A stretch of 64,000 nucleotides of DNA from Marinobacter sp. CHS3-4 (GTDB taxonomy: Bacteria; Pseudomonadota; Gammaproteobacteria; Pseudomonadales; Oleiphilaceae): the NCBI RefSeq assembly GCF_030053415.1, contig NZ_JASGBJ010000002.1:992001-1056000 (forward strand), written 5' to 3'. The position numbers and the translations under genes were made by a program. Positions 26,378-40,645 of this stretch are shown here, one piece after another. Each line of letters opens with the position of its first letter. Within the stretch, counting starts at the first letter, position 1. The notes under the pieces were generated by a model, which saw nothing but the letters and a program-made list of their open reading frames with translations, was not told where the DNA came from and made no database searches.

Positions 26378-27032
26378 GCCAGATCGCGATAACCACCAGT
26401 ACCAGCGTGGCCACTGGGAATATCAGCAAAACTTTCAGCTGAAGCCCCCAATAAGTGGCCGCGCTGAACAAAGCCCAGAAAACGGGAATCACCAGATAGA
26501 GCCACCTCGCAAGGCCTGTGAACAGAGCGCTTACGAGCACACCCGCAGCCACCGTTGTGCCAGGTGCAAGCCCGAACAGCGCCAGCGCCCGCCACTCCCC
26601 GGACAGCTCAACGGTTAACCACGGCAGACCGACCACCGCTATCACCCAGAGCGTGGCCGCCGAATACGGCAGCCTGGGCAAGGAGTCCGCAGAAAGCTTA
26701 ACCGCCAGAAAGCCGACGAGGACCGCCTGAGCCACGAATGCCCAGCCAAACCACACGGCAGGCCAATTAATCGGGCCAAAATAGCTCACAAGAAAAGCGA
26801 AGCCCGACGTTCCCCAGGCACAGGCCAGTAAAAACAGCCCGACACGCCTGGACGCCGATCGCTGATGACTCAGCAATAAAGGAAGCGCCAGAGCCGCGAA
26901 GACCGCGAGCAGAGTCCAGGGCCACAGATCCTGGTTGATCCGTTCAAACAGCCGGAGAAACACTTGCGGCCCGAACATGACGAAATCCTGTAGCGCGTAA
27001 CTCTGCCACTCAACGCCGCCATCAAGGGCCAT
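26346..27032 (-). CDS. Multi-pass membrane protein, DUF6064-like
   Basis: A 228-residue membrane protein with about six helices. The N-terminal stretch YALQDFVMFGPQVFLRLFER followed by NQDLWPW resembles DUF6064 proteins, whose function is unknown. Its ATG directly follows the stop of the Tat-exported aldo/keto reductase gene (TGAATG), so the two are probably cotranslated. The end runs 32 bases into the convergent aldo/keto reductase gene. Confidence 0.65.
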   Translation of the reverse strand: MALDGGVEWQSYALQDFVMFGPQVFLRLFERINQDLWPWTLLAVFAALALPLLLSHQRSASRRVGLFLLACAWGTSGFAFLVSYFGPINWPAVWFGWAFVAQAVLVGFLAVKLSADSLPRLPYSAATLWVIAVVGLPWLTVELSGEWRALALFGLAPGTTVAAGVLVSALFTGLARWLYLVIPVFWALFSAATYWGLQLKVLLIFPVATLVLVVIAIWLSPSRAQSRD

Positions 27033-27974
27033 TCACAGTGACCTCACATAGTCCGCCATCTGCCGACGCTGAGCCGGATCGGGCAAGGAACCATAGAGCG
27101 CCCCCATGTTTTCCTTCATGTGTTCGACTTTCGATGTGGCTGGAATGGCGCAAGTAACCGCCGGGTGGGAAATGATGTACTTCAGAAAGTATTCAGCCCA
27201 ATTGCTAACACCGGCCTCAGCAGCCCAGCCAGGCAAACGCTCGGACTGAAATCGACGGAACAGCGCCCCACCCTGGAACGGGCGGTTTACAATCACAGCT
27301 ATTCGCTTTTCTTGCGCCAGCGGCAGCAACTCTTCCTCAGCCTCACGATCCAGCAGGTTGTAGGTTAACTGCACAAAATCCAGGGGTTCGGATTCCATGA
27401 TGCGCGCGAACTCCCGGTGCCGGCGTCCGTGGGAGGTGGTGATACCGATGTATCGCACCTCACCGTTCGCTTTCATGGATTTGAGAGTTTCCAGATGCCC
27501 CTGCCAGCCCAGGAGGTTGTGTACCTGCAGAAGGTCGAACCGCTCTACGCCCCATCGACGGCTAGACCTGGTGGCCTCGGACCGGGTTTCGGACTCGTCT
27601 CCGGTCCAGATTTTGGTTGCCGCAAACACGCGATCTCTGGCGTTCAGTTCTGCCAGGGCTTCTCCCATCACGTCGGCCGCGGAGCCATACATGGGAGAGC
27701 CATCCACCAGCGTTCCGCCGCGATCAAAAAACGTCTTCAGCACTTGCGTGCGCTGATCCACCAGTTGTGGATCGCCTCCGACGTTAAAGGTAATCCAGGT
27801 GCCCATACCAATGGCTGGCAGTGCTTCCCCGGTTGTCGGAATACGGCGGGTGATGGGCGAATCAGTGGTGTTCTCTGCAAATGCAATGCGTTGAAAGGCC
27901 AGTGGCTGAGCCAGCGCGACACCACCCAGGCCCAGCCCCATCAGAAATCTGCGTCTATCAAGAAGGCGCGACAT
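27033..27974 (-). CDS. Tat-exported aldo/keto reductase
   Basis: An aldo/keto reductase with a twin-arginine signal. The start MSRLLDRRRFLMGLGLGGVA has the RRxFL motif, and cleavage is likely after RIAFA. The mature domain keeps AKR elements: the Asp/Tyr positions in GTLVDGSPMYGSA, Lys in FAATKIW, and His in DLLQVHNLL. The C-terminal cofactor segment AIPATSKVEHMKEN is present. The Tat route implies export of a folded, cofactor-loaded enzyme. The ATG at 27974 has GGAG upstream. It is followed without a gap by a DUF6064-like membrane protein gene. Confidence 0.88.
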   Translation of the reverse strand: MSRLLDRRRFLMGLGLGGVALAQPLAFQRIAFAENTTDSPITRRIPTTGEALPAIGMGTWITFNVGGDPQLVDQRTQVLKTFFDRGGTLVDGSPMYGSAADVMGEALAELNARDRVFAATKIWTGDESETRSEATRSSRRWGVERFDLLQVHNLLGWQGHLETLKSMKANGEVRYIGITTSHGRRHREFARIMESEPLDFVQLTYNLLDREAEEELLPLAQEKRIAVIVNRPFQGGALFRRFQSERLPGWAAEAGVSNWAEYFLKYIISHPAVTCAIPATSKVEHMKENMGALYGSLPDPAQRRQMADYVRSL

Positions 27975-28023
27975 AGATTCTCCAGTGATTGCAGACTCCT
28001 GGACTGACACTCCCTACGGCGAT

Positions 28024-28794
28024 TCAGTTCCCGTACTGTTGGTTCAGGTATTTGAGTATCCGTGCCGACTCAAACAACCGCTCACCCGTATTCGGATCTT
28101 CGAGATAAGGAACCTGTACCCGTTTGTGAATCTGGAAAAATTCATCCCGTTTACCGCCGGGAATGGGTGTGTAGGGGCCGGGCTTGATTCGCTGCTTTGC
28201 CGGGCCAAGCTCGGTCCAGTGCTCTTTTCCCAGGTTGTGCAGCGTGTAGGGAATTTCCAGCTCGCACAGTCGTTCTCTCACTAGCCTGGAGTAGGGGCTG
28301 CCCTCGAAGCTCCATAGATGCAACGGCTGCCCGACAGCTTTGGCCGGGCTGGCTCGCAGGCCACGCAAGGCACTGGCCGCCGAAGCCAGTGAACCGAGTG
28401 CGGGCTGATGAACCTTGCCCCGATAGTATTTAGGAACCGGGCGTTTGGCGTAGGTCTGAAAGAGATACTCGATGATCGCTTCCGATTCATAGAGCACGGT
28501 ACCGGTATTTTCATCCGACAACAGCGGGAACTGTTGTTTGCCACCGAGGGCTTCGGCCTCGCTGCGAAACTTATGGCCTCCTTTCGGGCACGGACGAATT
28601 TCCACGTCCAGGTGCAGCGCCGTCAGCGCTTCCCGAACCCGTCGGCAGTATGGGCAGGCTTCCATGTCATAAAGCACCAGCGGTTTTTCAGGTTGAACAA
28701 CCGGCCGCACCACCAGGCAACCCCGCCATGCGGTCAGAGAAGAGGTCGCTACCGAGCCCAGTACGTTCAGGTTATGGGTAATCGCATTGATCAT
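28024..28794 (-). CDS. Protein with two glutathione S-transferase N-terminal (thioredoxin-fold) domains
   Basis: A 256-residue protein with two tandem GST_N/thioredoxin-like domains. The first has an intact CPYC redox motif (MEACPYCRRVREAL) and the second a degenerate SPYS (EGSPYSRLVRERL). Both carry the VPYL/FPLL and E-S-(E/A)-x-I glutathione-site pattern (LYESEAIIEYL, LFESARILKYL). The usual helical GST C domain is absent. A role in disulfide or glutathione chemistry is inferred. It ends 50 bases before the Tat-exported reductase gene. Confidence 0.82.
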   Translation of the reverse strand: MINAITHNLNVLGSVATSSLTAWRGCLVVRPVVQPEKPLVLYDMEACPYCRRVREALTALHLDVEIRPCPKGGHKFRSEAEALGGKQQFPLLSDENTGTVLYESEAIIEYLFQTYAKRPVPKYYRGKVHQPALGSLASAASALRGLRASPAKAVGQPLHLWSFEGSPYSRLVRERLCELEIPYTLHNLGKEHWTELGPAKQRIKPGPYTPIPGGKRDEFFQIHKRVQVPYLEDPNTGERLFESARILKYLNQQYGN

Positions 28795-28941
28795 GAATCT
28801 ATCCTTTTACACAAAGTAACAAAACCGCAATACAAACAAGGTTCCTACTGGCATTTTTTAACGTCATGTAGAGCCAATCCACATAGTACGCTGAACCAAT
28901 ATGGGCTATTGTTAACCTAAATCGACTTGTCAGGCCAACCC

Positions 28942-30540
28942 ATGACGACGCCAGCAGCCAAAAACCGCTCTATTATGGAGTCACGAAGCGCTTTTCGCGC
29001 TTTTGGAGGACAGTCTGCAAAAGCGCGTTTCAACCGTGTTGCGCTTTCTATCGCCCTAACACTGGGCATGGGCTTTACATCGTTTGCGACCGCAGAAGAC
29101 GCTACGCCCTCAGCCCCGGCAAAATCGATCAAAACCTGGAGCAGCCAGGTAAAAGACTACGCAGAGCGGTCATTAAACAGCGACGAAGCTCTGAGCATGG
29201 CTGCCATCCCACTGAATGGACCAGGCATCGAGCAGTACATCAATGCTGACCAGCTGATGAGCCCCGGTTCCATCATGAAACTGTTGACCACCTACGCGGC
29301 GCTGGAGCTGTTAGGGCCAAGTTACCACTGGGAAACCCGCTTTCTGACAGATGGTTCATTGCAAGGCGATACACTGGACGGCAATCTGTATGTCGATATG
29401 GGTGGCGACCCCAAGCTAACCATCGAACGACTCTGGACCGTGCTCAGCGAGCTTCGCGGTATGGGCATCAGCCATATTAACGGTGACCTGGTGCTGGATG
29501 GCGATGTATTTCAGCTGTCGGACGAAGCACCCTCCTTCAAGGACAATGGCGACAATCCCAACGCCCCGTTTCTGGTTCAGCCATCCCCTTACCTCAGCAA
29601 CCTGAACCTGATTCACTTTCAGGTGCGTTCCGACGAGCGCGGCACGCAGGCGTGGAGTGCCCCGAATCTGCCCGAAGTCATTCTGGATAACCGGGTGACT
29701 TCCAGTGCCGAGGCGCCCTGCCCGCCTCGCCGTTATTTCGAGTGGGAGCCGGTCTTTCACGACGACGGCCGAGTTACTGTCCGGGTAAACGGTGAACTGC
29801 CAAAAGGCTGCCGCACCTCTGCCTATCTGTCGCTTCTCCCTCATGAGCAATACACCGCCTCCATGATTCGTTCATTGCTGACGGATATGAACATTGAGCT
29901 GAAGGGCGAGAACCGGCTAGAGGCGACACCTGAAGACGCCCGCCTGCTGCTGACCACCTCGTCGCCCGATCTCGTGGCGATGGTTCGGGACATCAATAAG
30001 TGGAGCAGCAACGTAATGGCGCGTCAGCTTTTGCTGACCATTGGCGCTGCCAACCGTCTCGAGGAAGACAACGACGACCGCGTAGCCGGTATTCGGGCCA
30101 TCGAGGAATGGCTGAGCGCCAAGGGCATCAACACAGCCGGTCTGGTCATTGAAAATGGCGCCGGTCTGACAAGGGAAGGCCGCATTACCGCGCGCCAGGG
30201 CGCTCAGATTCTCCAGCACGCCTGGAACAGCCCGTTTTCTGCAGACCTGATGGCCTCCCTTCCACTAATCGGCATGGACGGCACCATGGCCCGACGGCTT
30301 CGTGATACCGGCATGGATGGCGAAGGCCGAATCAAGACCGGTTATCTGGAAAACGTGCGTTCCATTGCCGGCTATACCCGCGACGACACCGACACCACCT
30401 GGGCCGTTGTCGGCATGGTCAACAACAATCCGGCCTGGAACGGTCAAGCAGTGCTCGACCGCATTCTCTACTCGCTGCACTTCCGACCGCCGACGGGCAC
30501 TACCCTCTCTCGCGCCCAATCCAACACTGCGATTCAATAG
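28942..30540 (+). CDS. dacB: D-alanyl-D-alanine carboxypeptidase/endopeptidase (PBP4, class C)
   Basis: A periplasmic low-molecular-weight penicillin-binding protein that trims or cleaves peptidoglycan crosslinks. The active-site triad is complete: SxxK in SPGSIMKLL, SxN in KWSSNVMARQ, and KTG in RIKTGYLENV. The large inserted domain typical of PBP4 lies between the first two. A hydrophobic signal (FNRVALSIALTLGMGFTSFA) follows a basic N terminus. The start is uncertain: TTG 28927, ATG 28942 and ATG 28975 are all in frame and none has a strong Shine-Dalgarno. Confidence 0.9.
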   Translation: MTTPAAKNRSIMESRSAFRAFGGQSAKARFNRVALSIALTLGMGFTSFATAEDATPSAPAKSIKTWSSQVKDYAERSLNSDEALSMAAIPLNGPGIEQYINADQLMSPGSIMKLLTTYAALELLGPSYHWETRFLTDGSLQGDTLDGNLYVDMGGDPKLTIERLWTVLSELRGMGISHINGDLVLDGDVFQLSDEAPSFKDNGDNPNAPFLVQPSPYLSNLNLIHFQVRSDERGTQAWSAPNLPEVILDNRVTSSAEAPCPPRRYFEWEPVFHDDGRVTVRVNGELPKGCRTSAYLSLLPHEQYTASMIRSLLTDMNIELKGENRLEATPEDARLLLTTSSPDLVAMVRDINKWSSNVMARQLLLTIGAANRLEEDNDDRVAGIRAIEEWLSAKGINTAGLVIENGAGLTREGRITARQGAQILQHAWNSPFSADLMASLPLIGMDGTMARRLRDTGMDGEGRIKTGYLENVRSIAGYTRDDTDTTWAVVGMVNNNPAWNGQAVLDRILYSLHFRPPTGTTLSRAQSNTAIQ

Positions 30541-30544
30541 ACAT

Positions 30545-30570
30545 AAAAAAGCCCCGGGGTTTCCGGGGCA
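30545..30570 (-). terminator. Hairpin downstream of dacB, T-tract on the minus strand
   Basis: GCCCCGG and CCGGGGC form a perfect stem. The tract of six A residues lies before it on the + strand, so the terminator geometry is correct for leftward transcription, although the adjacent genes both run rightward. It may still stop dacB transcripts weakly in the other direction. Confidence 0.6.
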
Positions 30571-30700
30571 AGACTCTTCTCAACGCTCAAATAAAACCAC
30601 TTTGTAGTACGAAGAACATGTCGCTTTCGGATCACTTGTGTCCCCATCCGATCAGCCTTATGGTTCGTAAAGATCGGTATCCGTTCCAGAGGCGCACGCC

Positions 30701-31600
30701 ATGTTTCAATCCTTATTCAACCGGCTGGTCATCGTCCTGATTTTCCTCCTATCGCTGGCAGGTTGCAGCTCCACAAAGCTGGCCTACCGTTACGCTGACT
30801 GGGGTATTGTCTGGTGGGTTGAAGACTACATACCGATGACGGATGAGCAGGAAGCACAGCTGGAGAAAGACATTGTTGAACTGCGTCAATGGCATTGCAG
30901 TTCCGAGCTACCTCGTTATTCTTCCTGGCTCTCAGAGCTCAAGCAGGACGTCCGTTCTGGCGAACTGCAACGCGACACGGTGGCCCATCATCAGGAGCAG
31001 CTGTTTTCTTTTTTCCTGCCTATTGCTGACCGGGCAAAACCCGCTGCATCGCGCCTGTTGGCAAGCCTGACTGACGATCAGGTCGAAGCCCTCGCCAACA
31101 ACATGGACGAAAGCCAGCAGAAGCTGGAAGAAGAATTCCTGAAGGAGGATCCGAAACAGACCCGCCAGGCACGCGCAGAAAGAACGCAGGAACGCGTGGA
31201 ACGTTGGCTGGGCGATCTGAATGAACAACAGGTGACCATTGTCGAAAAATGGTCGGAAAATCGGGGCCGGCAGACAGAGATATGGCTGGAGGGTCGCCGC
31301 AATTGGCAAAAGGCGTTACTCGAAACGTTGGACCAACGGGAAGAGGCGGCTTTTAAAGACCAGGTCGCCTATCTTATTGATAACAACGCCGAGGTACGCG
31401 GCCCACGCTATCAACAGATGATGAACGAAAGCCGTGTGGCTATGGCCGAGCTGATGACGTCGTTGCTCGAGCGTGCAGACCCGGAGCAACTGGATTTTCT
31501 GCTGGACCGCGCATCAACGCTGCGCGGCGACTTCAATACCCTCGCCTGCAATGACGAGAGTATTGAAGAGGGGCGTACGGAACAGGTCGGCCAACTTTGA
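30701..31600 (+). CDS. DUF6279 family lipoprotein
   Basis: A predicted lipoprotein: the signal peptide ends in the lipobox LSLAGCSS, with Cys at about residue 22. The mature part begins YRYADWGIVWWVEDYIPMTD, typical of DUF6279, and continues as charged helices rich in Glu, Gln and Arg, likely coiled coil. The function is unknown. AGAGG precedes the ATG. Confidence 0.85.
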   Translation: MFQSLFNRLVIVLIFLLSLAGCSSTKLAYRYADWGIVWWVEDYIPMTDEQEAQLEKDIVELRQWHCSSELPRYSSWLSELKQDVRSGELQRDTVAHHQEQLFSFFLPIADRAKPAASRLLASLTDDQVEALANNMDESQQKLEEEFLKEDPKQTRQARAERTQERVERWLGDLNEQQVTIVEKWSENRGRQTEIWLEGRRNWQKALLETLDQREEAAFKDQVAYLIDNNAEVRGPRYQQMMNESRVAMAELMTSLLERADPEQLDFLLDRASTLRGDFNTLACNDESIEEGRTEQVGQL

Positions 31601-31610
31601 GCATCCGATC

Positions 31611-32381
31611 TTAAATAGTCAGATACCCACCATCCACATTAATACAGGTACCGGTGGTGTAGCTGGAGGCCCCGGACGCGAGATACAGCACCGTTCCAGC
31701 CATTTCTTCCGGATCGGCTACCCGCTTCATGGGTATATGGGCCATCGCCTGCTTCTTGATAGATTCGTTGCTGGTCAGCGCACTGGCAAATTTGGTATCG
31801 GTCAGACCCGGCAGCAGCGCGTTAACACGCACCTTCTGCTGACCAAGCTCCATCGCAAACGAGCGCGTCATAGAGATCACTGCCGCCTTGGTGACAGAAT
31901 AGATTCCCTGGTAATGTCCCGGATTCACCCCGTTGACGGATGCCACGTTGATGATGGACCCACCCCCCGCTTTTTTCATCATCTGGGCGCCGCGGGCGCA
32001 CATGAAGAAATAGCCCCGAATATTCACATCCACGGTCTTGTGATAAGCGCCAAGGTCCGTGTCTTCGATCGGGCCAAAATAAGGGTTGGCGGCCGCATTG
32101 TTCACCAACACGTCGAGCTTGCCGTGGGTGGTCTGGATGTGCTCCCAGATCGCTTCGATCTGATCCATCTCGCCGATGTGGCAGGCATAAGCTTCAGCAC
32201 TGCCACCGTCTTCGCGGATGCTGCTGGCCACCGCTTCGCAACCCTCGATTTTACGGCTGCTGACAATCACATGGGCGCCATAAGCCGCCAGGGTGCGAGC
32301 TATGCTCTCACCAATACCGCGGCTTGCACCGGTGATGAGGGCAACTTTGCCCGTCATATCGAACAGATCAGGTTTGCTCAT
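31611..32381 (-). CDS. SDR family oxidoreductase in the ACAD11-like cluster
   Basis: A classical SDR with the cofactor motif ALITGASRGIGESIA, the NNAAANPYFG segment and catalytic YSVTKAAVI; the C terminus (SYTTGTCINVDGGYL) is typical. It is the last gene of the leftward cluster. A 3-hydroxyacyl or keto/hydroxy interconversion is plausible from the neighbours. The ATG at 32381 has GAGG eight bases upstream, while the longer frame starts at a TTG. It lies 28 bases after the histidine phosphatase gene. Confidence 0.9.
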   Translation of the reverse strand: MSKPDLFDMTGKVALITGASRGIGESIARTLAAYGAHVIVSSRKIEGCEAVASSIREDGGSAEAYACHIGEMDQIEAIWEHIQTTHGKLDVLVNNAAANPYFGPIEDTDLGAYHKTVDVNIRGYFFMCARGAQMMKKAGGGSIINVASVNGVNPGHYQGIYSVTKAAVISMTRSFAMELGQQKVRVNALLPGLTDTKFASALTSNESIKKQAMAHIPMKRVADPEEMAGTVLYLASGASSYTTGTCINVDGGYLTI

Positions 32382-32409
32382 GACATACCTCAAAGACTGA
32401 TAGTTTGTT

Positions 32410-33099
32410 TTATCGGAAAGTGATCAGAGACGGATCTTCCGCCTCCAGGTGACTGTAATTATTAAACACTGCGAGGGTGCGACGCGCCCCGGAGTAGAGG
32501 ACCCGGGAGACACTGGAGTTGGCGATCACACTGTTCATCTCGAGGGTTTTACGATCATCCAGATTTAAAAGATGTCGGGCGATCACCGCAATGGGTCCGC
32601 CGGAAGTAGAGACCAGAACATCACCGCCGTCGACGTACTCGATCAGCTCGTCCAGCGCAGTGATGACGCGGGACTGAAACGCAGACCAGCTCTCGGCATA
32701 CTCATCCGAATGCTCACCGCTCACCCAGCGTCCCATCGCCTGCTCGAACACCTGCTGGAACGCGGTGGCCGGTTTCGGAAAAGCGGCAAGATCCCGGGCC
32801 ATTCGGTCCCGGTCGGCCCACTCGGGACGGAACCGCTCAACAACTTCGGTGTGGTCGAACTCGTTGAACCCTTCCACAGCCTGCATGCTGGGCAGGCTGT
32901 CGCCATAACCACCTGTAATGGCCTCAACGGTTTCCCGATGACGCTCCATGTTGCCGCCAAACACGGCGGTCGGGGCAACTTTGCCCTTCAGCCAACGACC
33001 GAGCACCCGGCCCTGCTCCCAGCCTTTCGCTGACAGCTGATCGTAGTTTTCCTTGCCAAAGCTGGCCTGGCCATGGCGAATCAGATAGATGGTCGCCAT
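32410..33099 (-). CDS. Histidine phosphatase family protein in the ACAD11-like cluster
   Basis: A cytoplasmic phosphoglycerate-mutase-like phosphatase. The active-site motif is YLIRHGQASFG, with the second His-bearing region replaced by the VLVSTSGGPIAVIAR block seen in many SixA/GpmB-like relatives. No signal peptide is present. Its ATG overlaps the stop of the kinase gene by one base (TAATG), so kinase and phosphatase are translationally coupled. Removing phosphate from a phosphorylated acyl intermediate or side product is a reasonable guess. Confidence 0.88.
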   Translation of the reverse strand: MATIYLIRHGQASFGKENYDQLSAKGWEQGRVLGRWLKGKVAPTAVFGGNMERHRETVEAITGGYGDSLPSMQAVEGFNEFDHTEVVERFRPEWADRDRMARDLAAFPKPATAFQQVFEQAMGRWVSGEHSDEYAESWSAFQSRVITALDELIEYVDGGDVLVSTSGGPIAVIARHLLNLDDRKTLEMNSVIANSSVSRVLYSGARRTLAVFNNYSHLEAEDPSLITFR

Positions 33100-34163
33100 T
33101 ACAGATCGCTCGCTTCAATCAGCCGCTGACAGCGTTTCTCCAGATAGTTGGCCGCATGACCGAAGGCAGCAAACCGCTTGTCTTTGGTCTGACCGTGGTA
33201 GAACCGGTAGTAAATCTGCTGAACGATCACCGCAAGGCGGAACAGGCCATAGATTTCATAGAAATCGAAGTTGTCGATCTTCAGCCCGGATTTCTCCGCG
33301 TAGTAAGCGACCACTTCCTTGCGAGTCAGCATGCCTGGCTGATGCGTCGGCTGGCGACGCAGCATCTGGAACGGGCCTTCATCATCCGCCTGAATCCAAT
33401 AAGCCAGGCTGTTGCCCAGATCCATCAATGGGTCACCGATGGTGGCCATTTCCCAATCCAGCACACCCACCACTTCGAACGGGTTATCCGGGTTCAGCAC
33501 CACGTTGTCGAAGCGGTAGTCGTTGTGGATAACCACCTGGGCGACGTCTTCCGGCATTTTATCTTCCAGCCAGCCCATCACCTGCTCGAAATCACCGACG
33601 TCGTCTGTTTTGGCCTTGCGAAAGCGGTCGCTCCAACCGCGAATCTGGCGCTCAACATAACCCGCGCCCTTACCCAGTTTGTCCAGCCCGGTGGCCTTGG
33701 CATCCACTTGATGAAGATCCACCAGCTTGTCGATCACGTTCAGGCATAGCTTGCGGGTGTCAGCCTCGCTGAGTTCCAGGTCTTTGGGGAAATCCTGGCG
33801 CAGAATGATGCCTTTCAGCCGCTCCATCACGTAAAAATCGCAACCGAGTACATCATGATCGTCACAGATCGCGACAATGTCGGGGACGTAAGGGTAGACC
33901 GGCTTCAGCGCACGCATCACCTTCGCTTCCCTCAGCATATCGTGAGCGGACTTGGCAATTTTTCCGAACGGCGGGCGGCGCAGAACGTAGGATCGTTCGC
34001 CGTAATCCACCTGATAGGTCAGGTTGGAGGCACCACCGGGGTATTGCTTGATCTCCGGGCTGCCCTCCAGATCCGGAATGGCCTGCTTCATGAAGCGGTC
34101 AACGACGGCAACATCCAGTTCTTCACCTTCACGAATATCGACCGCCTGATCAATCTGAGTCAT
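33099..34163 (-). CDS. APH-fold phosphotransferase (ACAD10/11 kinase-like)
   Basis: A kinase of the aminoglycoside phosphotransferase fold. The N lobe has YPGGASNLTYQVDYGERSYV then LRRPPFGK, matching the kinase half of animal ACAD11. The catalytic loop is VIHNDYRFDNVVL, and the metal-binding motif is GVLDWEMATIGDPLMDLGN. In ACAD10/11 and the bacterial LvaA, such kinases phosphorylate 4-hydroxyacyl-CoA or hydroxy acids. The physical link here with an ACAD11-like dehydrogenase gene supports a similar role, although substrate and product are not proven. Confidence 0.85.
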   Translation of the reverse strand: MTQIDQAVDIREGEELDVAVVDRFMKQAIPDLEGSPEIKQYPGGASNLTYQVDYGERSYVLRRPPFGKIAKSAHDMLREAKVMRALKPVYPYVPDIVAICDDHDVLGCDFYVMERLKGIILRQDFPKDLELSEADTRKLCLNVIDKLVDLHQVDAKATGLDKLGKGAGYVERQIRGWSDRFRKAKTDDVGDFEQVMGWLEDKMPEDVAQVVIHNDYRFDNVVLNPDNPFEVVGVLDWEMATIGDPLMDLGNSLAYWIQADDEGPFQMLRRQPTHQPGMLTRKEVVAYYAEKSGLKIDNFDFYEIYGLFRLAVIVQQIYYRFYHGQTKDKRFAAFGHAANYLEKRCQRLIEASDL

Positions 34164-34214
34164 TAAGGACTCTCCTCTTTTCTTGCTTTTTATCCGGTGT
34201 TGGCCAGATAGAAG

Positions 34215-35030
34215 TTAAGCAGCACCGCCCATCTTTTTCATCCAACGCTTGCTTTCCTTCTGCATCAACCAGTCAAACGCCTTGGGTGCGTGGCGTTTGA
34301 GCACCCACATCCGGCGTTCTCTGGCGTGTGGCAGCACCCAGAAGTCACCGTTTTTAACGGCCCGGAAAACGTCGTCGGCGACGTCTTCGGCGGTGATGTC
34401 AGAACGCTTCATCAGCTTGTTGATGTTCTGCTGAACACCGGGAATTTCGGAGCGCATGGTGCTGGCGAGGTTGGTCTGGAAAAACGCAGGACAGACGCAA
34501 CTGACGTGAATACCGCTATAACGAAGCTCTTGGCTCAGGGTTTCCGACAGCGCTATGACACCGGCTTTGGACACGTTGTAGCTGTTCATCAACGGCGCCA
34601 GCATCAGGCCCGCCATGGAGGCCACGTTCACAAACGCACCAGCGCCCTGCTTCTTGAACTGCGGCGTGAAGGCTTTGCAACCACGAACGACGCCCAGCAC
34701 GTTGATGTCCATGATCCATTCCCAGTCAGCCATGGTGGTGTCTTCGATGGAGCCTGCCGAGGCAACGCCGGCGTTGTTGACGACCACGTCTACACCGCCC
34801 CATTTGTTGGTGAGCTCATCGCAGATTTGTTCCAGATCGGTCAGACGCCGCACGTCACACTCGACGAAGTAACCCTCGCCGCCTGCGTTGTTCAACTCCT
34901 GCTCAACCAGCACACCCTGATCCGGGTTAATGTCCCCGATACAGACTTTGGCGCCTTCCTTCGCGTACCGTAATGCAATCGCGCGGCCCAGGCCACTGGC
35001 GCCGCCGGTAATAAATACTCGTTGTGTCAT
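34215..35030 (-). CDS. SDR family oxidoreductase in the ACAD11-like cluster
   Basis: A 271-residue SDR with the cofactor motif FITGGASGLGRAIAL, NNAGVASAGSIED and catalytic YNVSKAGVIALSE. The C-terminal extension (WVLPHARERRMWVLKRHAPK) is seen in SDRs near fatty-acid catabolic genes. It may oxidise or reduce a hydroxyl or keto group on the acyl chain before or after phosphorylation. It lies between the acyl-CoA dehydrogenase and the kinase genes, with about 50 to 70 bases on each side. Confidence 0.88.
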   Translation of the reverse strand: MTQRVFITGGASGLGRAIALRYAKEGAKVCIGDINPDQGVLVEQELNNAGGEGYFVECDVRRLTDLEQICDELTNKWGGVDVVVNNAGVASAGSIEDTTMADWEWIMDINVLGVVRGCKAFTPQFKKQGAGAFVNVASMAGLMLAPLMNSYNVSKAGVIALSETLSQELRYSGIHVSCVCPAFFQTNLASTMRSEIPGVQQNINKLMKRSDITAEDVADDVFRAVKNGDFWVLPHARERRMWVLKRHAPKAFDWLMQKESKRWMKKMGGAA

Positions 35031-35103
35031 ATTGGCCTATTCCTCGATTATAAATTCTGAGTTCGCCTTAGCTTCGCCCTGGCGTGAAAATCACAGGCCG
35101 TTC

Positions 35104-36315
35104 TCAGCTTCGATACTTGGCCAACTCAAGACGAGTCACCATCGCCCGGTGGACCTCGTCCGGGCCATCCGCCAGCCGCAGAACCCGCGCGTAGGCGAAC
35201 AGCTGGGTCAGCGGGAAGTCTTCATCACTGACGCCTGCCCCACCATGAATCTGAATCGCGTCGTCGACAATCTGCTGCAGCATGTTCGGAATGACCGCTT
35301 TGATCATGGACACTTCCTGCAGCGCGCCAGAAATACCCTTGGTGTCCAACGCCCAGGCGCATTTCAGCGTCAGCAGACGAGCCTGCTCAATGTTCATACG
35401 GGCGTTGGCAATAATGTCGACATTACCGCCCAGCTTCGCAATCGGGCGACCAAAGGCTTCGCGACTGGTGGCCCGCTTGATCAGCAATTCAAGCGTGCGT
35501 TCCGCCGCGCCGATCGCCCGCATGCAGTGATGTACGCGGCCAGGACCAAGGCGGCCCTGTGCGATTTCAAACCCACGACCCGGTCCGGCAATAAAAGCAC
35601 TTTTCGGAAGTCGCACGTTGTCGAACTTCACAACACCATGGCCATAGGGCTCGTCGTAGGCACCAAACACCGGCAGCATGCGTTCAACCGTAACACCCGG
35701 GGTATCCAGCGGCACCAATACCATGGAATGACGACGGTGTTTGTGGCCATCGGGATCTGTCAGCCCCATAAAGATGGCAACTTTGCAGTCCGGGTGGCCA
35801 ACCCCGGTGCTCCACCATTTGCGACCATTGAGAACCACCTCATCGCCTTCGACAATTGCGGTAGCTTCCATATTGGTTGCGTCAGAGGAGGCGACGGCTG
35901 GCTCAGTCATACAAAAGGCAGAGCGAACTTCGCCGCTTTGCAGTTTCGGCAACCATTGGGCTTTCTGCTCTTCCGAGCCGTAGTGAATCAGTACTTCCAT
36001 ATTGCCGGTATCCGGCGCATTGCAGTTGAAGATCTCGGGTGCAATAAAGCTTCGCCCGGTCTCTTCTGCAATCAGGGCATAGTCCGAGTTCAGCAAGCCA
36101 CAACCATGCTCTTCATCCGGAAAGAACATGTTCCAAAGACCTTCAGCTTTTGCCTTGGCTTTCAGCTCTTTAATGATCGGCAGTACCACCCAGCGGTTTT
36201 CCTGAGCCATCAGCTCGCGATGGTATTCTTCCTCTATCGGGAAAATCTCTTTCTCCATAAAGGCTTTGACGCGCTTCAGGTAATCCTGGCCCTTTTCAGA
36301 AATCGTAAAATCCAT
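35104..36315 (-). CDS. Acyl-CoA dehydrogenase, ACAD11-like
   Basis: A 403-residue flavin acyl-CoA dehydrogenase. The FAD and substrate segments include SAFCMTEPAVASSDATNME, GRKWWSTGVGHP and RLGPGRVHHCMRAIGAAER. The stretches YALIAEETGRSFIAPEIFNC and APDTGNMEVL are closely similar to the dehydrogenase half of ACAD11. In that family the enzyme acts on 4-phosphoacyl-CoA and yields an enoyl-CoA. It is the first gene of the leftward cluster and is divergent from a LysR gene. Confidence 0.9.
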   Translation of the reverse strand: MDFTISEKGQDYLKRVKAFMEKEIFPIEEEYHRELMAQENRWVVLPIIKELKAKAKAEGLWNMFFPDEEHGCGLLNSDYALIAEETGRSFIAPEIFNCNAPDTGNMEVLIHYGSEEQKAQWLPKLQSGEVRSAFCMTEPAVASSDATNMEATAIVEGDEVVLNGRKWWSTGVGHPDCKVAIFMGLTDPDGHKHRRHSMVLVPLDTPGVTVERMLPVFGAYDEPYGHGVVKFDNVRLPKSAFIAGPGRGFEIAQGRLGPGRVHHCMRAIGAAERTLELLIKRATSREAFGRPIAKLGGNVDIIANARMNIEQARLLTLKCAWALDTKGISGALQEVSMIKAVIPNMLQQIVDDAIQIHGGAGVSDEDFPLTQLFAYARVLRLADGPDEVHRAMVTRLELAKYRS

Positions 36316-36405
36316 CGGGGTGTCCTCACGGTTTTGGTCAATATGGAAACAGTCTAGATTTGTCTATACTATTACGCGACTGAATTTTTCTTATCTTCCA
36401 TCATA

Positions 36406-36421
36406 AAGAATAGTAATTCTT
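36406..36421 (+). promoter_or_regulatory. Perfect palindrome abutting the LysR ribosome-binding site
   Basis: AAGAAT, 4 bases, ATTCTT. It ends at the first base before GGAGG, the Shine-Dalgarno of the LysR gene, in the divergent region with the acyl-CoA dehydrogenase gene. It could be an autoregulatory operator. Confidence 0.4.
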
Positions 36422-36434
36422 GGAGGGATAACAC

Positions 36435-37328
36435 GTGGCGTTGAACCGGCTGGATCTGAACCTGCTGCATGTATTCGATACGATTTATCGCGAAGGTAGC
36501 CTGACGCGTGCGGCAAAGGCATTGCACCTGACCCAACCGGCCGTGAGTCATTCCCTGTCACGGCTTCGGGAGCATTTCGACGACCCACTGTTCAGCCGCC
36601 AGGGAAATCAGATGGTGCCCACCCCACTGGCCCGGCGCTTTCTGGAATCCATGCGGCCGGGGCTGACTCAGATCCAGAGTTCGGTTAATCAGTTTCACGC
36701 CTTTGACCCCGCCAGTCAGAGGAAAACCTATTCTCTGGCCCTGAGGGACATACTGGAATCCACCTTTTTGCCACAGCTGATGCAACGCCTGGAAGGCTAT
36801 CCTGAACTGGAAATCAGCAGCCAGAGAATTCCCAGGCGTGACATGGAAACCCAGCTAGCCGCTGGCAAGCTGGATTTTGCGGTAGATGTGTTGCTGCCTG
36901 TCAGCAATCAGACGGCCCACGAACGCTTGCGCAGAGATCGGCTGGTGGTGCTGGCCCGGTCGGGCCATCCGCTGGCACAGGGCCCGATGACAATGGATGG
37001 GTATCTGGAAGCCAAGCACGTGCTGGTATCCTCCCGTACTGAAGGTCCGGGCATTGAGGATTTCGAGCTGTCGAGGTTGGGCGTTCAAAGAGAGATCCGG
37101 CTACGTTGCCAGCACTACTACGCCGCCTGTCGGGTGGTGGAAGCGTCAGACCTGCTACTGACCATGCCGGAGATCTACGCCAGAATTATTGCAGAGCGCG
37201 CCGATATCTCCATTCTGACACCACCGGTGGACCTGCCAGATATCGACGTGCACCTGTATTGGCACAAAGCCTATGAAAAAGAGCCCGCGTTGATCTGGTT
37301 CAGGGACCAGCTGAAGGAGATTGCGTGA
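36435..37328 (+). CDS. LysR family transcriptional regulator
   Basis: A 297-residue LysR regulator. The N-terminal winged helix-turn-helix is LTRAAKALHLTQPAVSHSLS, followed by the effector-binding domain. The start is a GTG at 36435 with GGAGGG seven to eight bases upstream. Divergent placement from the ACAD11-like cluster suggests that it controls that cluster in response to a pathway metabolite. The inducer is unknown. Confidence 0.92.
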   Translation: MALNRLDLNLLHVFDTIYREGSLTRAAKALHLTQPAVSHSLSRLREHFDDPLFSRQGNQMVPTPLARRFLESMRPGLTQIQSSVNQFHAFDPASQRKTYSLALRDILESTFLPQLMQRLEGYPELEISSQRIPRRDMETQLAAGKLDFAVDVLLPVSNQTAHERLRRDRLVVLARSGHPLAQGPMTMDGYLEAKHVLVSSRTEGPGIEDFELSRLGVQREIRLRCQHYYAACRVVEASDLLLTMPEIYARIIAERADISILTPPVDLPDIDVHLYWHKAYEKEPALIWFRDQLKEIA

Positions 37329-37334
37329 GCGGGG

Positions 37335-37691
37335 TCAGTAAGCTCCAACCAGTTTAAGGAATCCCAGAAACCCAGCGGCTGTCAGCAGCAGGGATGCGGA
37401 GACGATGCCAAACCCCCACCATATAGCCGCAACGTCGGACACCGGCGCATCATGCCCGCGAAGTGTGCGATAGAACGCCCAGGGACCCAGCAGAAAAGCA
37501 CCCGCAACCACAAACACCAGCCCGATACTGATACCTGCGAATGTCCAGGTGGCCAATACCGTCGCCCGGTCAGAAACCTGCTCCGTCACGCCGTGATGCT
37601 CCAGGAATTTCTTGCAGAAAAACCAGACCAGGCCATAGAGCGCGACAACAAAAATCAGGCCACCGATGATCGTGATCAGGCGATACAGCAA
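37335..37691 (-). CDS. Small membrane protein of unknown function
   Basis: A 118-residue protein with three hydrophobic segments (LITIIGGLIFVVALYGLVWF, a central segment from TWTFAGISIGLVFVVAGAF, and one at the C terminus). I do not recognise the family. It ends seven bases from the convergent LysR stop and follows the EAL gene by about 33 bases on the same strand. Confidence 0.65.
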   Translation of the reverse strand: MLYRLITIIGGLIFVVALYGLVWFFCKKFLEHHGVTEQVSDRATVLATWTFAGISIGLVFVVAGAFLLGPWAFYRTLRGHDAPVSDVAAIWWGFGIVSASLLLTAAGFLGFLKLVGAY

Positions 37692-37724
37692 AAGAAACCC
37701 CTCAATGTCAGTAAAGTACAGTCG

Positions 37725-38516
37725 TCAGTCAGGAAAAACCGGCTCCGGAAGCGTCTCGAATCCCGGTTTTGCAAACAGATACCCCTGATACAGAGAAATG
37801 CCCTGCGACCTGAGCCAGAAGTATTCCTGTGGCGTTTCCACGCCTTCGGCAAGTACCTTACCACCAAGTTGGCTCATCATTGTCATGATACCGGCAACGA
37901 TCGCCTGTTTGTTGGCTTCTTTATCAATGTCCCGAACCAACTCCATATCCAGCTTCAGAATATCAGGCGGACTGGCCATCAGGATGTTATACCGTGAGTA
38001 CCCGGTACCAAAATCGTCCAGTGCAGTCTGGAAACCCATTTTCTGGTAGGCGCGAATAATATCCACGTAGTGATCGATCGATCCCAGCTCCTCGGTTTCG
38101 ATCAGTTCGAAAATAAGTTTACGGGTATCGAAATCAGCGGCTTTTGCGGCGGCCAGAGTCGTTCGGATGCAATACTCTGCCTGATACACGGCGTTAGGCA
38201 TGAAGTTGATGCTTAGTAGCGCTTCCATCCCCAGCCGCGCCGCCAGCTTCACAGCTTTCACCCTGCAAACCTGATCGAACGAATAACGATTTTGCTCATT
38301 CACCTTTGATAGAACACTCCACGCCCCACCTCCGTCTGCACCCCTGACCAGGGCTTCGTAGGCATAGACGTTCTTGGTCTCGGCATCCACAATAGGCTGA
38401 AAAGCGAAAGTGAAATCGAAGCCCAGGCCCGCACCGCACTCACACTGCTCACAATGAGACTCATCAAACAGGGTTGAAGGGAACTCAGAAGGGCCTGTTA
38501 GACCGATTTTATCCAC
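37725..38516 (-). CDS. Stand-alone EAL domain c-di-GMP phosphodiesterase
   Basis: An EAL-only protein of about 263 residues that should hydrolyse cyclic di-GMP. Motifs are YEALVRG (EAL), INFMPN, FELIETEE, LDDFGTGYSRYNI (metal ligands), ILKLDMELV and LAEGVETPQEY (catalytic Glu). The N terminus has a Cys cluster, HCEQCECGAG, which could bind metal or sense redox state. A GTG at 38516 with TTTTGGAG upstream is preferred to the TTG at 38573. No GGDEF or membrane segment is present. Confidence 0.88.
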   Translation of the reverse strand: MDKIGLTGPSEFPSTLFDESHCEQCECGAGLGFDFTFAFQPIVDAETKNVYAYEALVRGADGGGAWSVLSKVNEQNRYSFDQVCRVKAVKLAARLGMEALLSINFMPNAVYQAEYCIRTTLAAAKAADFDTRKLIFELIETEELGSIDHYVDIIRAYQKMGFQTALDDFGTGYSRYNILMASPPDILKLDMELVRDIDKEANKQAIVAGIMTMMSQLGGKVLAEGVETPQEYFWLRSQGISLYQGYLFAKPGFETLPEPVFPD

Positions 38517-38697
38517 GGCTACTCCAAAATTTTTTGCGTCAACGACCAGCCATTTATGACCTTTTACATGCAACTATAGAGAATAGAGCCAACTTAACAA
38601 ATGCAGTGCTGTTAAATCTTGTGGAAACCCAGCTTCACACAGCTACACTCAACCACACTCACTATTTACGTACGTTATGGTCTCAAGGAGTAATGGT

Positions 38698-39858
38698 ATG
38701 CCGAAAACCTTCCGCATTGCCGTCACCCCCGGTGATGGAATCGGCCCTGAAGTCGTTGCCGAGGCAGTGCGCTGCCTGGAGCTGCTGAAATCCAGGCATA
38801 ACCTGCCCCTGGACTGGACCAGTCTGCCCTGGCCTTCCCATGCTTGGCACGAAGAACACGGTGAATCCATGCCTTCAGACGCACTTGAGCAGTTGAAGGC
38901 CTACGATGCCATTCTGCTTGGCGCCCTGGGGGACCCAGGACCCGTATCGAATCCTGACCGCTACCTGCTACCCGACAGCATTTCCCTGGCGCCACTGCTG
39001 GACATGCGCAAAGGCTTTGATCAATGGGTGTGCGAACGCCCTGCCAGATTGCTGCCGGGCGCTCGCCAGTATCTGGCTGACGACCGAGCGAAAGACATTG
39101 ACATGCTGGTGATTCGTGAAAACAGCGAAGGCGAATACGTCAGCCAGGGTGGCCGCCTTCGCAAGGGAACCCCTGACGAGGTCGCCACACAAATGGAGGT
39201 GTTTACTCGCCACGCTACCGATCGCATTATTCGTTATGGCTTTGAACAGGCCAGAAAACGGGCGAGCGATCGGGCCGCTGAAGGCAGCCCACGGCAGTTT
39301 AAAACCCTCGACGGAAAAACCTGTGAAAGCCAGGTTTGCATCATCACCAAGCGCAACGCGCTGCGCCATTGGGGTGACATGTACAGCGAAGCCTTTGAGG
39401 AAATGGCGAAAGAATACCCGGATGTGGCTACGCACCACGAGTTGGTGGACGCGGCGTGCATGAAGTTCGTCCAGTGCCCCTGGGCCTTTGACGTAGTAGT
39501 CGCCAGCAACCTGCAGGGGGATATTCTGACGGATCTAGCAGCCGTGCTGTCTGGCGGCATGGGCGTAGCGCCGTCCTGCAACCTGAACCCGGACGACCCG
39601 GACATGCCCTCTATGTTCGAGCCCACCCACGGCAGCGCGCCAGACATTGCGGGCGAAGGACTGGCTGACCCTACGGCCATGTTGTTCACGGCAGCGAGAA
39701 TGCTGGAATGGCTGGGCCGCCAGGAACCGTCACTCGATGCGGCCGGCAAGGCGCTCTACGATGCGGTTGCGGCGGATCTGGCAGAGAATTCGGGTAGCCA
39801 ACGCGGTACCCGAGAGATTGGCGATGCAGTCTGTAGCAGGATCAAGCAGGCAGGCTAG
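38698..39858 (+). CDS. Isocitrate/isopropylmalate-type dehydrogenase, DmlA/tartrate-like
   Basis: An NAD-dependent beta-decarboxylating dehydrogenase. The start is RIAVTPGDGIGPEVV. The RENSEGEY motif and GGRLRKGTP resemble D-malate/tartrate dehydrogenases (DmlA, Ttu) more than LeuB. The substrate Arg and Lys positions are in FDQWVCERPARL and CIITKRNALRHW, and the metal Asp region in VVASNLQGDILTDL. No leuC or leuD is nearby. The ATG at 38698 has AAGGAG upstream. The exact substrate (D-malate, tartrate or another 2-hydroxy acid) is not determined. Confidence 0.8.
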   Translation: MPKTFRIAVTPGDGIGPEVVAEAVRCLELLKSRHNLPLDWTSLPWPSHAWHEEHGESMPSDALEQLKAYDAILLGALGDPGPVSNPDRYLLPDSISLAPLLDMRKGFDQWVCERPARLLPGARQYLADDRAKDIDMLVIRENSEGEYVSQGGRLRKGTPDEVATQMEVFTRHATDRIIRYGFEQARKRASDRAAEGSPRQFKTLDGKTCESQVCIITKRNALRHWGDMYSEAFEEMAKEYPDVATHHELVDAACMKFVQCPWAFDVVVASNLQGDILTDLAAVLSGGMGVAPSCNLNPDDPDMPSMFEPTHGSAPDIAGEGLADPTAMLFTAARMLEWLGRQEPSLDAAGKALYDAVAADLAENSGSQRGTREIGDAVCSRIKQAG

Positions 39859-39861
39859 CGC

Positions 39862-40461
39862 CTACTCTGCCATCACAAACTCAAGCCGGCCTGGTGCTAC
39901 TCGAATATCCAGTGGCACCAGGCCAAACATTTTCTGGGTAGGATCGCTCTCATCCAACCGGTAGACCGGCATGGTCTCAAGCATCTGGGCGACCACTCGC
40001 ATCACATTATCGGTCACCGGCTTCAGATCGCCTTTGAAGAATGACGATTCCACACTGCTCTCCAACAACTGGAGCCGCCGGATATAAACCGCCTTCTCTT
40101 TGCTGTCATAAACCGGCGAGCCCTCCACTTTCAGGGCAATGTCTACCGGCAACTTCACCATCAGGGCATTGAGGGATACCTGCCCAGCCACATCAATCAC
40201 TGCGACGTCGCGCCCATCCGGTCCGAGGGTGATGTTCGCATCTTTCAGGGACAAAGCCAGTGGAGAGCCGCTTTGGAGCTGCTGGCGATCAAAGTCCGCT
40301 ACTGCGTCTTTGAGATGCCGCTCAATGGTCGCCTCGGACACTGAGTAAGGTGAAAAACTGGCACACCCACCTATCAGAGAAAACACAAGAAAAGCCGTCA
40401 GATAACGCAGCAGCGCGTTTCCCTCGAACAAATCGTGAAAAGCACGGACGCGATCAGTCAT
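39862..40461 (-). CDS. DUF1439 family lipoprotein
   Basis: A predicted lipoprotein. The signal peptide ends in the lipobox FSLIGGCASF. The mature domain of about 165 residues resembles DUF1439 (E. coli YceB), a lipid-binding-like beta-rich domain of unknown function. The ATG at 40461 overlaps the upstream CPXCG gene by 8 bases and is preferred to 40500. It converges on the dehydrogenase gene with three bases between the stops. Confidence 0.8.
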   Translation of the reverse strand: MTDRVRAFHDLFEGNALLRYLTAFLVFSLIGGCASFSPYSVSEATIERHLKDAVADFDRQQLQSGSPLALSLKDANITLGPDGRDVAVIDVAGQVSLNALMVKLPVDIALKVEGSPVYDSKEKAVYIRRLQLLESSVESSFFKGDLKPVTDNVMRVVAQMLETMPVYRLDESDPTQKMFGLVPLDIRVAPGRLEFVMAE

Positions 40462-40645
40462 TTTCAGCCCAAACATTAACGGAGGGAACGAGGTTTTCAT
40501 CCAGCGTTACGTGAACCACGATCGGCTGGCAACATACCTGGCAGTCTTCTACATACTCCTGATCCGGCACTGATGGATCCACGCTGATATCCAGCGTCTC
40601 CCAGCAGTACGGGCATTGCACCAGTACCGAATCCAGGGCGGACAT
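40454..40645 (-). CDS. Small CPXCG-type cysteine-rich protein
   Basis: A 63-residue zinc-ribbon-like protein with two Cys pairs, VQCPYCWETLDI and DCQVCCQPI, plus an acidic tail (WAEND). It belongs to the CPXCG-motif cysteine-rich family of unknown function. The ATG at 40645 lies just after the aminotransferase stop, and the longer frame upstream merely reads through the aminotransferase gene in another frame. Confidence 0.75.
   Translation of the reverse strand: MSALDSVLVQCPYCWETLDISVDPSVPDQEYVEDCQVCCQPIVVHVTLDENLVPSVNVWAEND

Follow-up and report, generated by a model that had tools for sequence, protein, structure and literature searches.

A serine-variant histidine-phosphatase-fold protein beside an ACAD11-like kinase and dehydrogenase in a Marinobacter gene cassette

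Phosphorylation-dependent routes for hydroxy acids

The animal enzymes ACAD10 and ACAD11 were given a phospho-elimination route for 4-hydroxy acids only in 2024-2025 (PMC11342911, PMC12440821). In the former report, Paquay et al. describe the replacement of ACAD10 domains by bacterial relatives of LvaA and LvaC, and find that the HAD domain of ACAD10 lowers kinase activity and has negligible phosphatase activity of its own (PMC11342911). Within the bacterial levulinate (lva) system, LvaB is reported to interact with LvaA (PMC6692424). The same paper also describes the lva cluster of Pseudomonas citronellolis LA18T (LC458675), where a histidine phosphatase adjoins an lvaA homologue, lvaC and lvaD homologues are present and no lvaB homologue is described in the region analysed; the phosphatase is proposed to remove phosphate from 4-phosphovaleryl-CoA (PMC6692424). 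The cassette considered here lies in a stretch of 64,000 nucleotides from Marinobacter sp. CHS3-4 (contig NZ_JASGBJ010000002.1, positions 992,001 to 1,056,000), called the window below, and combines a kinase and an acyl-CoA dehydrogenase (ACAD) of this general kind with a histidine-phosphatase-fold protein.

The core mechanism of the cassette is already known, and the phosphatase is its open, testable part. The phosphatase-like domain of ACAD10 has no clear role; in bacteria the components are encoded separately and kinases of one family have several natural types of phosphatase next to them, which makes the pathway's need for a phosphatase directly testable. Literature searches for a cassette of the window type, and for a phosphatase with 4-phosphoacyl-CoA as its substrate, turned up the cited papers and otherwise unrelated ones, most subscription journals lying outside the search. 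Several features described below were not found in the literature searched and appear to be new: the serine-variant subfamily, its association with one kinase clade (clade A), its distribution across phyla, the other phosphatases that take its place and the connection with SCP2.

The window cassette consists of five minus-strand open reading frames (ORFs) in the order ACAD, short-chain dehydrogenase/reductase 1 (SDR1), kinase, phosphatase and SDR2, with a LysR gene divergent from them. An earlier, sequence-only reading had given this order, and the ORF coordinates and Pfam families (acyl-CoA dehydrogenase, adh_short, APH, His_Phos_1, adh_short_C2 and LysR) bear it out, and the NCBIfam matches agree with the gene names it gave; the motifs APDTGNMEVL, HNDYRFDN and LDWEMATIGDP are all present in the translations. 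The stop codon of the kinase overlaps the start codon of the phosphatase in the sequence TAATG. Like ACAD11 and ACAD10, the cassette has the kinase and dehydrogenase halves with an HCMR set, an upstream Arg and a catalytic Asp, but here the genes are separate, the kinase appears to be of another clade, and a phosphatase, two SDRs and a LysR regulator are added. The lva operon shares the logic of kinase, ACAD and SDR, going by the available descriptions (PMC6692424, PMC11342911); measured against them, the window cassette has a phosphatase and lacks an adjoining CoA ligase and an LvaR-type regulator. Neither was found among the 13 ORFs scanned (about 27000 to 40500), where a LysR gene stands instead.

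A serine-variant subfamily of the histidine phosphatase fold

The gene that follows the kinase (32410..33099, minus strand) encodes a protein of 229 residues. Its predicted structure is confident (pLDDT 96) and has the fold of branch 1 of the histidine phosphatases, to which PhoE, CobC and PGAM5 belong (VIA Z 22.6, rmsd 2.3, 173 aligned to PGAM5 6cni_A); Foldseek and VIA searches with the model returned this general fold and no functional lead. The protein resembles branch 1 enzymes in its fold and in having R8 and H9 of the RHG nucleophile, R53 and E80, where R53 is presumably the second arginine and E80 the acid residue, roles that we carry over from the histidine phosphatase family. It differs from them in having a serine, Ser166, in place of the second catalytic histidine.

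Serine occupies this position in all 122 rows of an alignment of relatives scoring above 200 bits, a threshold under which a His-keeping relative might fall. R8, H9, R53 and E80 are invariant in the same 122 rows, as is N194, and N213 is kept in 121; these two asparagines are candidates for taking over the part of the missing His. The scan for the named loci, which are the best 80 of 577 phosphatase relatives, used an SGG pattern, hence serine was counted separately in searches free of any motif. It was present in 61 of 61 such rows: 26/26 from a class-wide search, 16 from ACAD-anchored loci, 13/13 from loci of the Pseudomonadaceae-like family discussed below and 6/6 from plasmid records. The four low His_Phos matches in the fetched loci (24-30 bits) all read HGG and come from other subfamilies. 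Judged by these alignments, the protein represents a distinct histidine-phosphatase subfamily whose members always carry Ser at the position of the second catalytic His; they are called serine phosphatases below.

A uniform serine is what one might expect of a non-hydrolytic pseudo-enzyme that restrains or activates the kinase, much as LvaA needs LvaB and as ACAD10 is held back by its HAD domain. The overlap of the two genes in TAATG would suit such a dedicated partner, as would the published interaction of LvaB with LvaA and the published effect of the HAD domain. The strict conservation of R8, H9, R53 and E80, on the other hand, would be needless for a dead scaffold.

Association with one kinase clade

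The kinase gene (33099..34163, minus strand) encodes an APH-fold protein of 354 residues (Pfam), predicted to be a hydroxyacyl-CoA kinase. The HxDxxxxN loop, the metal-binding Asp and an Arg (H213, D215, N220, D236 and R172) are each conserved in 120 of 120 rows. R172, the Arg of GYxxRQ, may correspond to the substrate arginine R176 of ACAD11, as we read a pairwise alignment. A role in aminoglycoside resistance is ruled out, the NCBIfam resistance models scoring far under their cut-offs.

A tree of the 120 kinases and three outgroup rows (ACAD11 itself not among them) splits with strong support into clade A, with 69 rows including the window's, and clade B, with 50; a further row, on a long branch (L044_none), belongs to neither. 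Clade A kinases stand beside a serine phosphatase in 68 rows and without one in a single row, although many of these rows derive from phosphatase-anchored searches. The loci anchored on the ACAD give the same picture: a serine phosphatase accompanies the kinase in 9 of 10 clade A cases and in 7 of the 41 remaining ones (p = 3e-5). The sole clade A exception (L115) comes from a genome, G597, that has a serine phosphatase elsewhere, at L167. Clade B is mixed, with 29 rows without a phosphatase, 16 with the serine type, three with SurE and two with a canonical histidine phosphatase. So faithful an accompaniment of clade A would fit a pseudo-enzyme partner as well.

Compared with solved structures, the window kinase scores 298 bits with 9o56, a relative for which a literature search found no paper, and 159 bits with ACAD11. 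In contrast, three clade B kinases are closer to 3dxp and ACAD11 (265-304 bits) than to 9o56 (155-206). Because of this difference in the ACAD11 scores, the ACAD11 kinase half appears to lie nearer clade B, and the window kinase to be its sister rather than its direct counterpart. The earlier claim that the kinase matches one half of ACAD11 thus stands as to the likeness, but probably not as to direct correspondence.

The split between the clades also raises the possibility that clade A diverged from 4-hydroxyacyl-CoA to another hydroxy substrate, such as a 5-hydroxy, hydroxy-dicarboxylic, terpenoid or sterol side-chain acyl-CoA, with either role for the phosphatase. Its strong support, the 34% identity between the window kinase and one clade B kinase, and the presence of both clades within single genomes (for example G660, with L117 in A and L168 in B) are consistent with such a divergence. 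The dehydrogenase argues against it.

The phosphate-eliminating dehydrogenase

The dehydrogenase (35104..36315, minus strand; 403 residues; Pfam) scores 575 bits with the solved structure 4hr3 and 445 bits with mouse ACAD11, ordinary ACADs reaching at most 150. Work on mouse ACAD11 ties R626, H634, R637 and D753 to the 4-phosphate and catalysis (PMC12440821). The window enzyme has R255, R260, H263, C264, M265, R266 and D383, of which R255 and H263-C-M-R266 match mouse R626 and H634-C-M-R637. The R, H, M and R of this set are found in 159 of 159 aligned rows (window included, all above 380 bits with a purpose-built profile, many of them near relatives), and the Cys of the HCMR motif in 158, differing in one. 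The catalytic Asp equivalent to D753, which replaces the usual Glu, is D383 and is likewise found in all 159. These phosphate-holding residues are invariant whichever kinase clade adjoins.

By its residue marks, the dehydrogenase would be of the phosphate-eliminating ACAD10/11/LvaC type, predicted to turn 4-phosphoacyl-CoA into 2-enoyl-CoA, and the residue set rules out an ordinary beta-oxidation ACAD. The mouse score and the set of R, R, H-C-M-R and Asp uphold the earlier suggestion that it resembles one half of animal ACAD11. It is the one ACAD11-type gene of its genome, the 13 other matches to it being at most 30% identical.

Co-occurrence and spread of the cassette

With cut-offs of E <=1e-90 for the ACAD11 type and E <=1e-10 for the phosphatase, a phylum sample of 397 genomes has ACAD11-type genes in 140, and a class sample of 369 has them in 39 and the phosphatase in 26. 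The class sample divides into 23 genomes with both, three with the phosphatase only, 16 with the ACAD only and 327 with neither (p = 4e-23); G120, which counts among those with the phosphatase only, has an adjoining ACAD that falls just below the cut-off, at 298 bits. The 25 phosphatase loci of this sample other than the window's include 13 with kinase and ACAD, three with the kinase only, three with the ACAD only and six with neither. Starting from the dehydrogenase, 80 loci were collected (mostly one listed match per genus plus second matches, genera without listed positions being left out). A kinase is present in 51, accompanied by a serine phosphatase in 16, by SurE in three, by a canonical HGG histidine phosphatase in two and by none of these within 4.5 kb in 30. 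The sequence-only reading had expected kinase and dehydrogenase to co-occur across genomes, and they do so widely.

The full order LysR, ACAD, SDR1, kinase, phosphatase, SDR was counted manually in 22 of the 80 named loci. The nearest named loci are from Marinobacter, with identities of up to 82% for the phosphatase and 91% for the kinase. Beyond the Marinobacter group, most loci end in an SDR of a different type (PRK08251 in one representative). Clustering of the neighbouring ORFs yielded many shadow ORFs, which were set aside by eye. Six plasmid records, of 47 with a match, were examined, and in each an HCMR-bearing ACAD is found together with the kinase and a serine phosphatase; their hosts are Deinococcus, Streptomyces, Ideonella, Pseudoalteromonas, Azospirillum and a Rhodobacteraceae bacterium, and no LysR gene lies beside the cassette in the Deinococcus, Streptomyces and Rhodobacteraceae records. 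Further loci occur in Myxococcota, Thermodesulfobacteriota and Actinoplanes, and the phosphatase-like protein recurs beside the kinase in at least four phyla. A chance arrangement is ruled out because the full order recurs in other genomes and variants of it are found on plasmids.

One family (f3, Pseudomonadaceae-like, a name that we infer) has the kinase in 103 of 148 genomes, apart from the ACAD11-type gene in the fetched loci. Phosphatase, SCP2 sterol-carrier domain gene, kinase and SDR2 lie together in 13 of 20 fetched loci, and the SCP2 gene sits between phosphatase and kinase in all 13 that have the phosphatase. The kinase has an SCP2 neighbour in 14 loci of this family (for example L343:8102-8434) and in L038. 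Among genomes shared by the phylum sample and this family's sample, all 16 with the ACAD have the kinase; among the genomes listed, G680 and G733 have neither. Two other loci of the family (L355 and L356) have another kinase of the window's type beside DUF1329, assigned by eye in L355, without ACAD or phosphatase; L356 also has DUF1302. Together with CoA-ligase neighbours in some relatives, the SCP2 and DUF1329/DUF1302 genes suggest bulky hydrophobic acids, and they would fit a substrate other than 4-hydroxyacyl-CoA.

Other partners beside the kinase

The gene after the kinase encodes SurE in three sister-clade loci (L095, L101 and L164), and in two others the kinase has a canonical histidine phosphatase of the HGG type next to it. 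In the kinase tree each group makes up one clade, and they are therefore counted as two further recruitments. SurE is present twice in four genomes (G427, G490, G516 and G622), where one copy lies at a distance of about 2 kb from a second ACAD11-type gene; in the two such loci fetched, from G490 (L164) and G622 (L095), the kinase lies between ACAD and SurE. G490, another species of the window's genus, has a second cluster (L164:4145-8750) of thioesterase, ACAD, SDR2, kinase and SurE. The window genome has one SurE, located away from the cassette. A 4HBT thioesterase adjoins two clusters (L154 and L164) and is possibly another rescue enzyme.

The presence of SurE and HGG phosphatases beside the sister-clade kinase is most naturally read to mean that dephosphorylation itself is useful there. 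That such phosphatases hold the neighbouring place speaks against an inert partner, as does the retention of the serine phosphatase at loci that lack a kinase in cis.

Dedicated kinase partners of another kind do exist. In all 18 loci fetched, from 19 places listed, DUF6285 adjoins or is fused to a kinase of a more distant subfamily: it is fused to the C-terminus of the APH kinase in five (L189-L192 and L194) and is the next gene in the other 13. We take DUF6285 to be LvaB. The existence of such pairs favours the pseudo-enzyme explanation in a general way; DUF6285 as the partner of the window kinase is ruled out, since it was looked for and not found in the window's own genome and is paired with a more distant kinase subfamily.

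Fifteen of the 121 phosphatase loci have a CurA/leukotriene-B4-dehydrogenase-like reductase (L033:12550-13545, the one representative identified) not far from the cassette. This neighbour may point to lipid-peroxidation products.

A putative repair phosphatase and its alternatives

Given the gene content, conserved catalytic residues and co-occurrence observed, it is rather probable that this is a LysR-controlled catabolic cassette feeding hydroxy acyl-CoAs into beta-oxidation, with the phosphatase as a dedicated repair enzyme. The substrates would be hydroxy acyl-CoAs, with C4 the most likely position of the hydroxyl group, and, by way of the SDRs, keto acyl-CoAs. The kinase would phosphorylate the hydroxyl group and the ACAD11-type enzyme would remove the phosphate to leave a 2-enoyl-CoA, while SDR1 and SDR2 would interconvert keto and hydroxy groups. 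The serine phosphatase would strip phosphate from products that the dehydrogenase cannot use, such as the wrong isomer, the wrong position or a CoA-free phospho acid, and so prevent a dead-end pool. Because SurE and a canonical histidine phosphatase take the phosphatase's place in the sister clade, the comparison points to real dephosphorylation beside the kinase rather than an inert partner, and the task is probably the repair of dead-end phospho-acyl-CoA. The cassette also predicts which bacterial clusters could break down lactones, acids resembling levulinate and products of lipid peroxidation.

The sequence-only reading had offered two roles for the phosphatase, the reset of misphosphorylated intermediates or replacement of the ACAD10 HAD domain. 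Reset is favoured, but both are retained, the second catalytic His being absent from the phosphatase and the HAD domain of ACAD10 reportedly having negligible phosphatase activity. Longer hydroxy fatty acids are a plausible substrate, for which the SCP2 lipid-carrier gene in Pseudomonadaceae is the main genomic hint. More tentatively, the serine type could be a dedicated phospho-hydroxyacyl-CoA phosphatase, the pairing of kinase with phosphatase a general safeguard re-invented repeatedly (serine, SurE and canonical histidine types), and the ACAD10 HAD domain its decayed animal counterpart.

Several observations weigh against the proposed repair cassette. Since Ser stands for the second catalytic His in every member, phosphatase activity cannot be assumed. 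No serine, SurE or HGG phosphatase lies within 4.5 kb in the 30 ACAD-anchored kinase loci mentioned above, other phosphatase families not having been searched systematically. The cluster SurE is the sole SurE of G531 and could be the housekeeping copy there. The substrate of clade A kinases is a prediction, and the ACAD11 kinase scores nearer clade B. Marinobacter daqiaonensis (L205, 6029-9523) keeps LysR, SDR1, phosphatase and SDR2 with kinase and ACAD not in place, likely a natural deletion, and four Alcanivorax-type loci keep SDR1-phosphatase-SDR with neither in place (ORFs read in one), although copies occur elsewhere in these genomes. A genome-wide check of 12 phosphatase loci, most without a kinase in cis, found a kinase relative in 12/12 genomes and an ACAD11 relative in 10/12, and the phosphatase therefore does not have to stand in cis to its partners.

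Taking the evidence together, we consider the pseudo-enzyme partner unlikely, though a serious contender, and divergence of clade A to another hydroxy substrate similarly doubtful. A plain variant of the lva operon in which the phosphatase stands for LvaB is quite improbable, because it fits the P. citronellolis region with its phosphatase and no described lvaB homologue (PMC6692424) but not the LysR gene in place of an LvaR-type regulator, the scanned neighbouring genes, which include neither a CoA ligase nor a transporter, or the second SDR.

Reductases, regulator and neighbouring genes

The two SDRs of a cassette with the putative repair phosphatase are both predicted keto/hydroxy oxidoreductases. 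SDR1 (34215..35030, minus strand) is of the PRK05650/NF004196 type (403.7 bits, cut-off 297) and SDR2 (31611..32381, minus strand; the ORF listing begins it at an upstream TTG, 32393) of the PRK07035/NF005446 type (457.4 bits, cut-off 373). The divergent LysR-type regulator (36435..37328, plus strand; Pfam) presumably controls the cassette, and a LysR gene of the same family adjoins many related cassettes.

Sequence comparison of the divergent promoter revealed a candidate operator (36350..36391) made up of CAGTC-N23-GACTG arms (36350-36382) and a conserved flank. Nine of the 14 intergenic rows aligned, the window included, match both arms and their spacing exactly, making the arms a candidate LysR site. 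A search for sigma70-like sites gave a sole match, on the other strand. Farther away in the window, at 27033-28794, an aldo/keto reductase adjoins a protein with two GST N-terminal domains.

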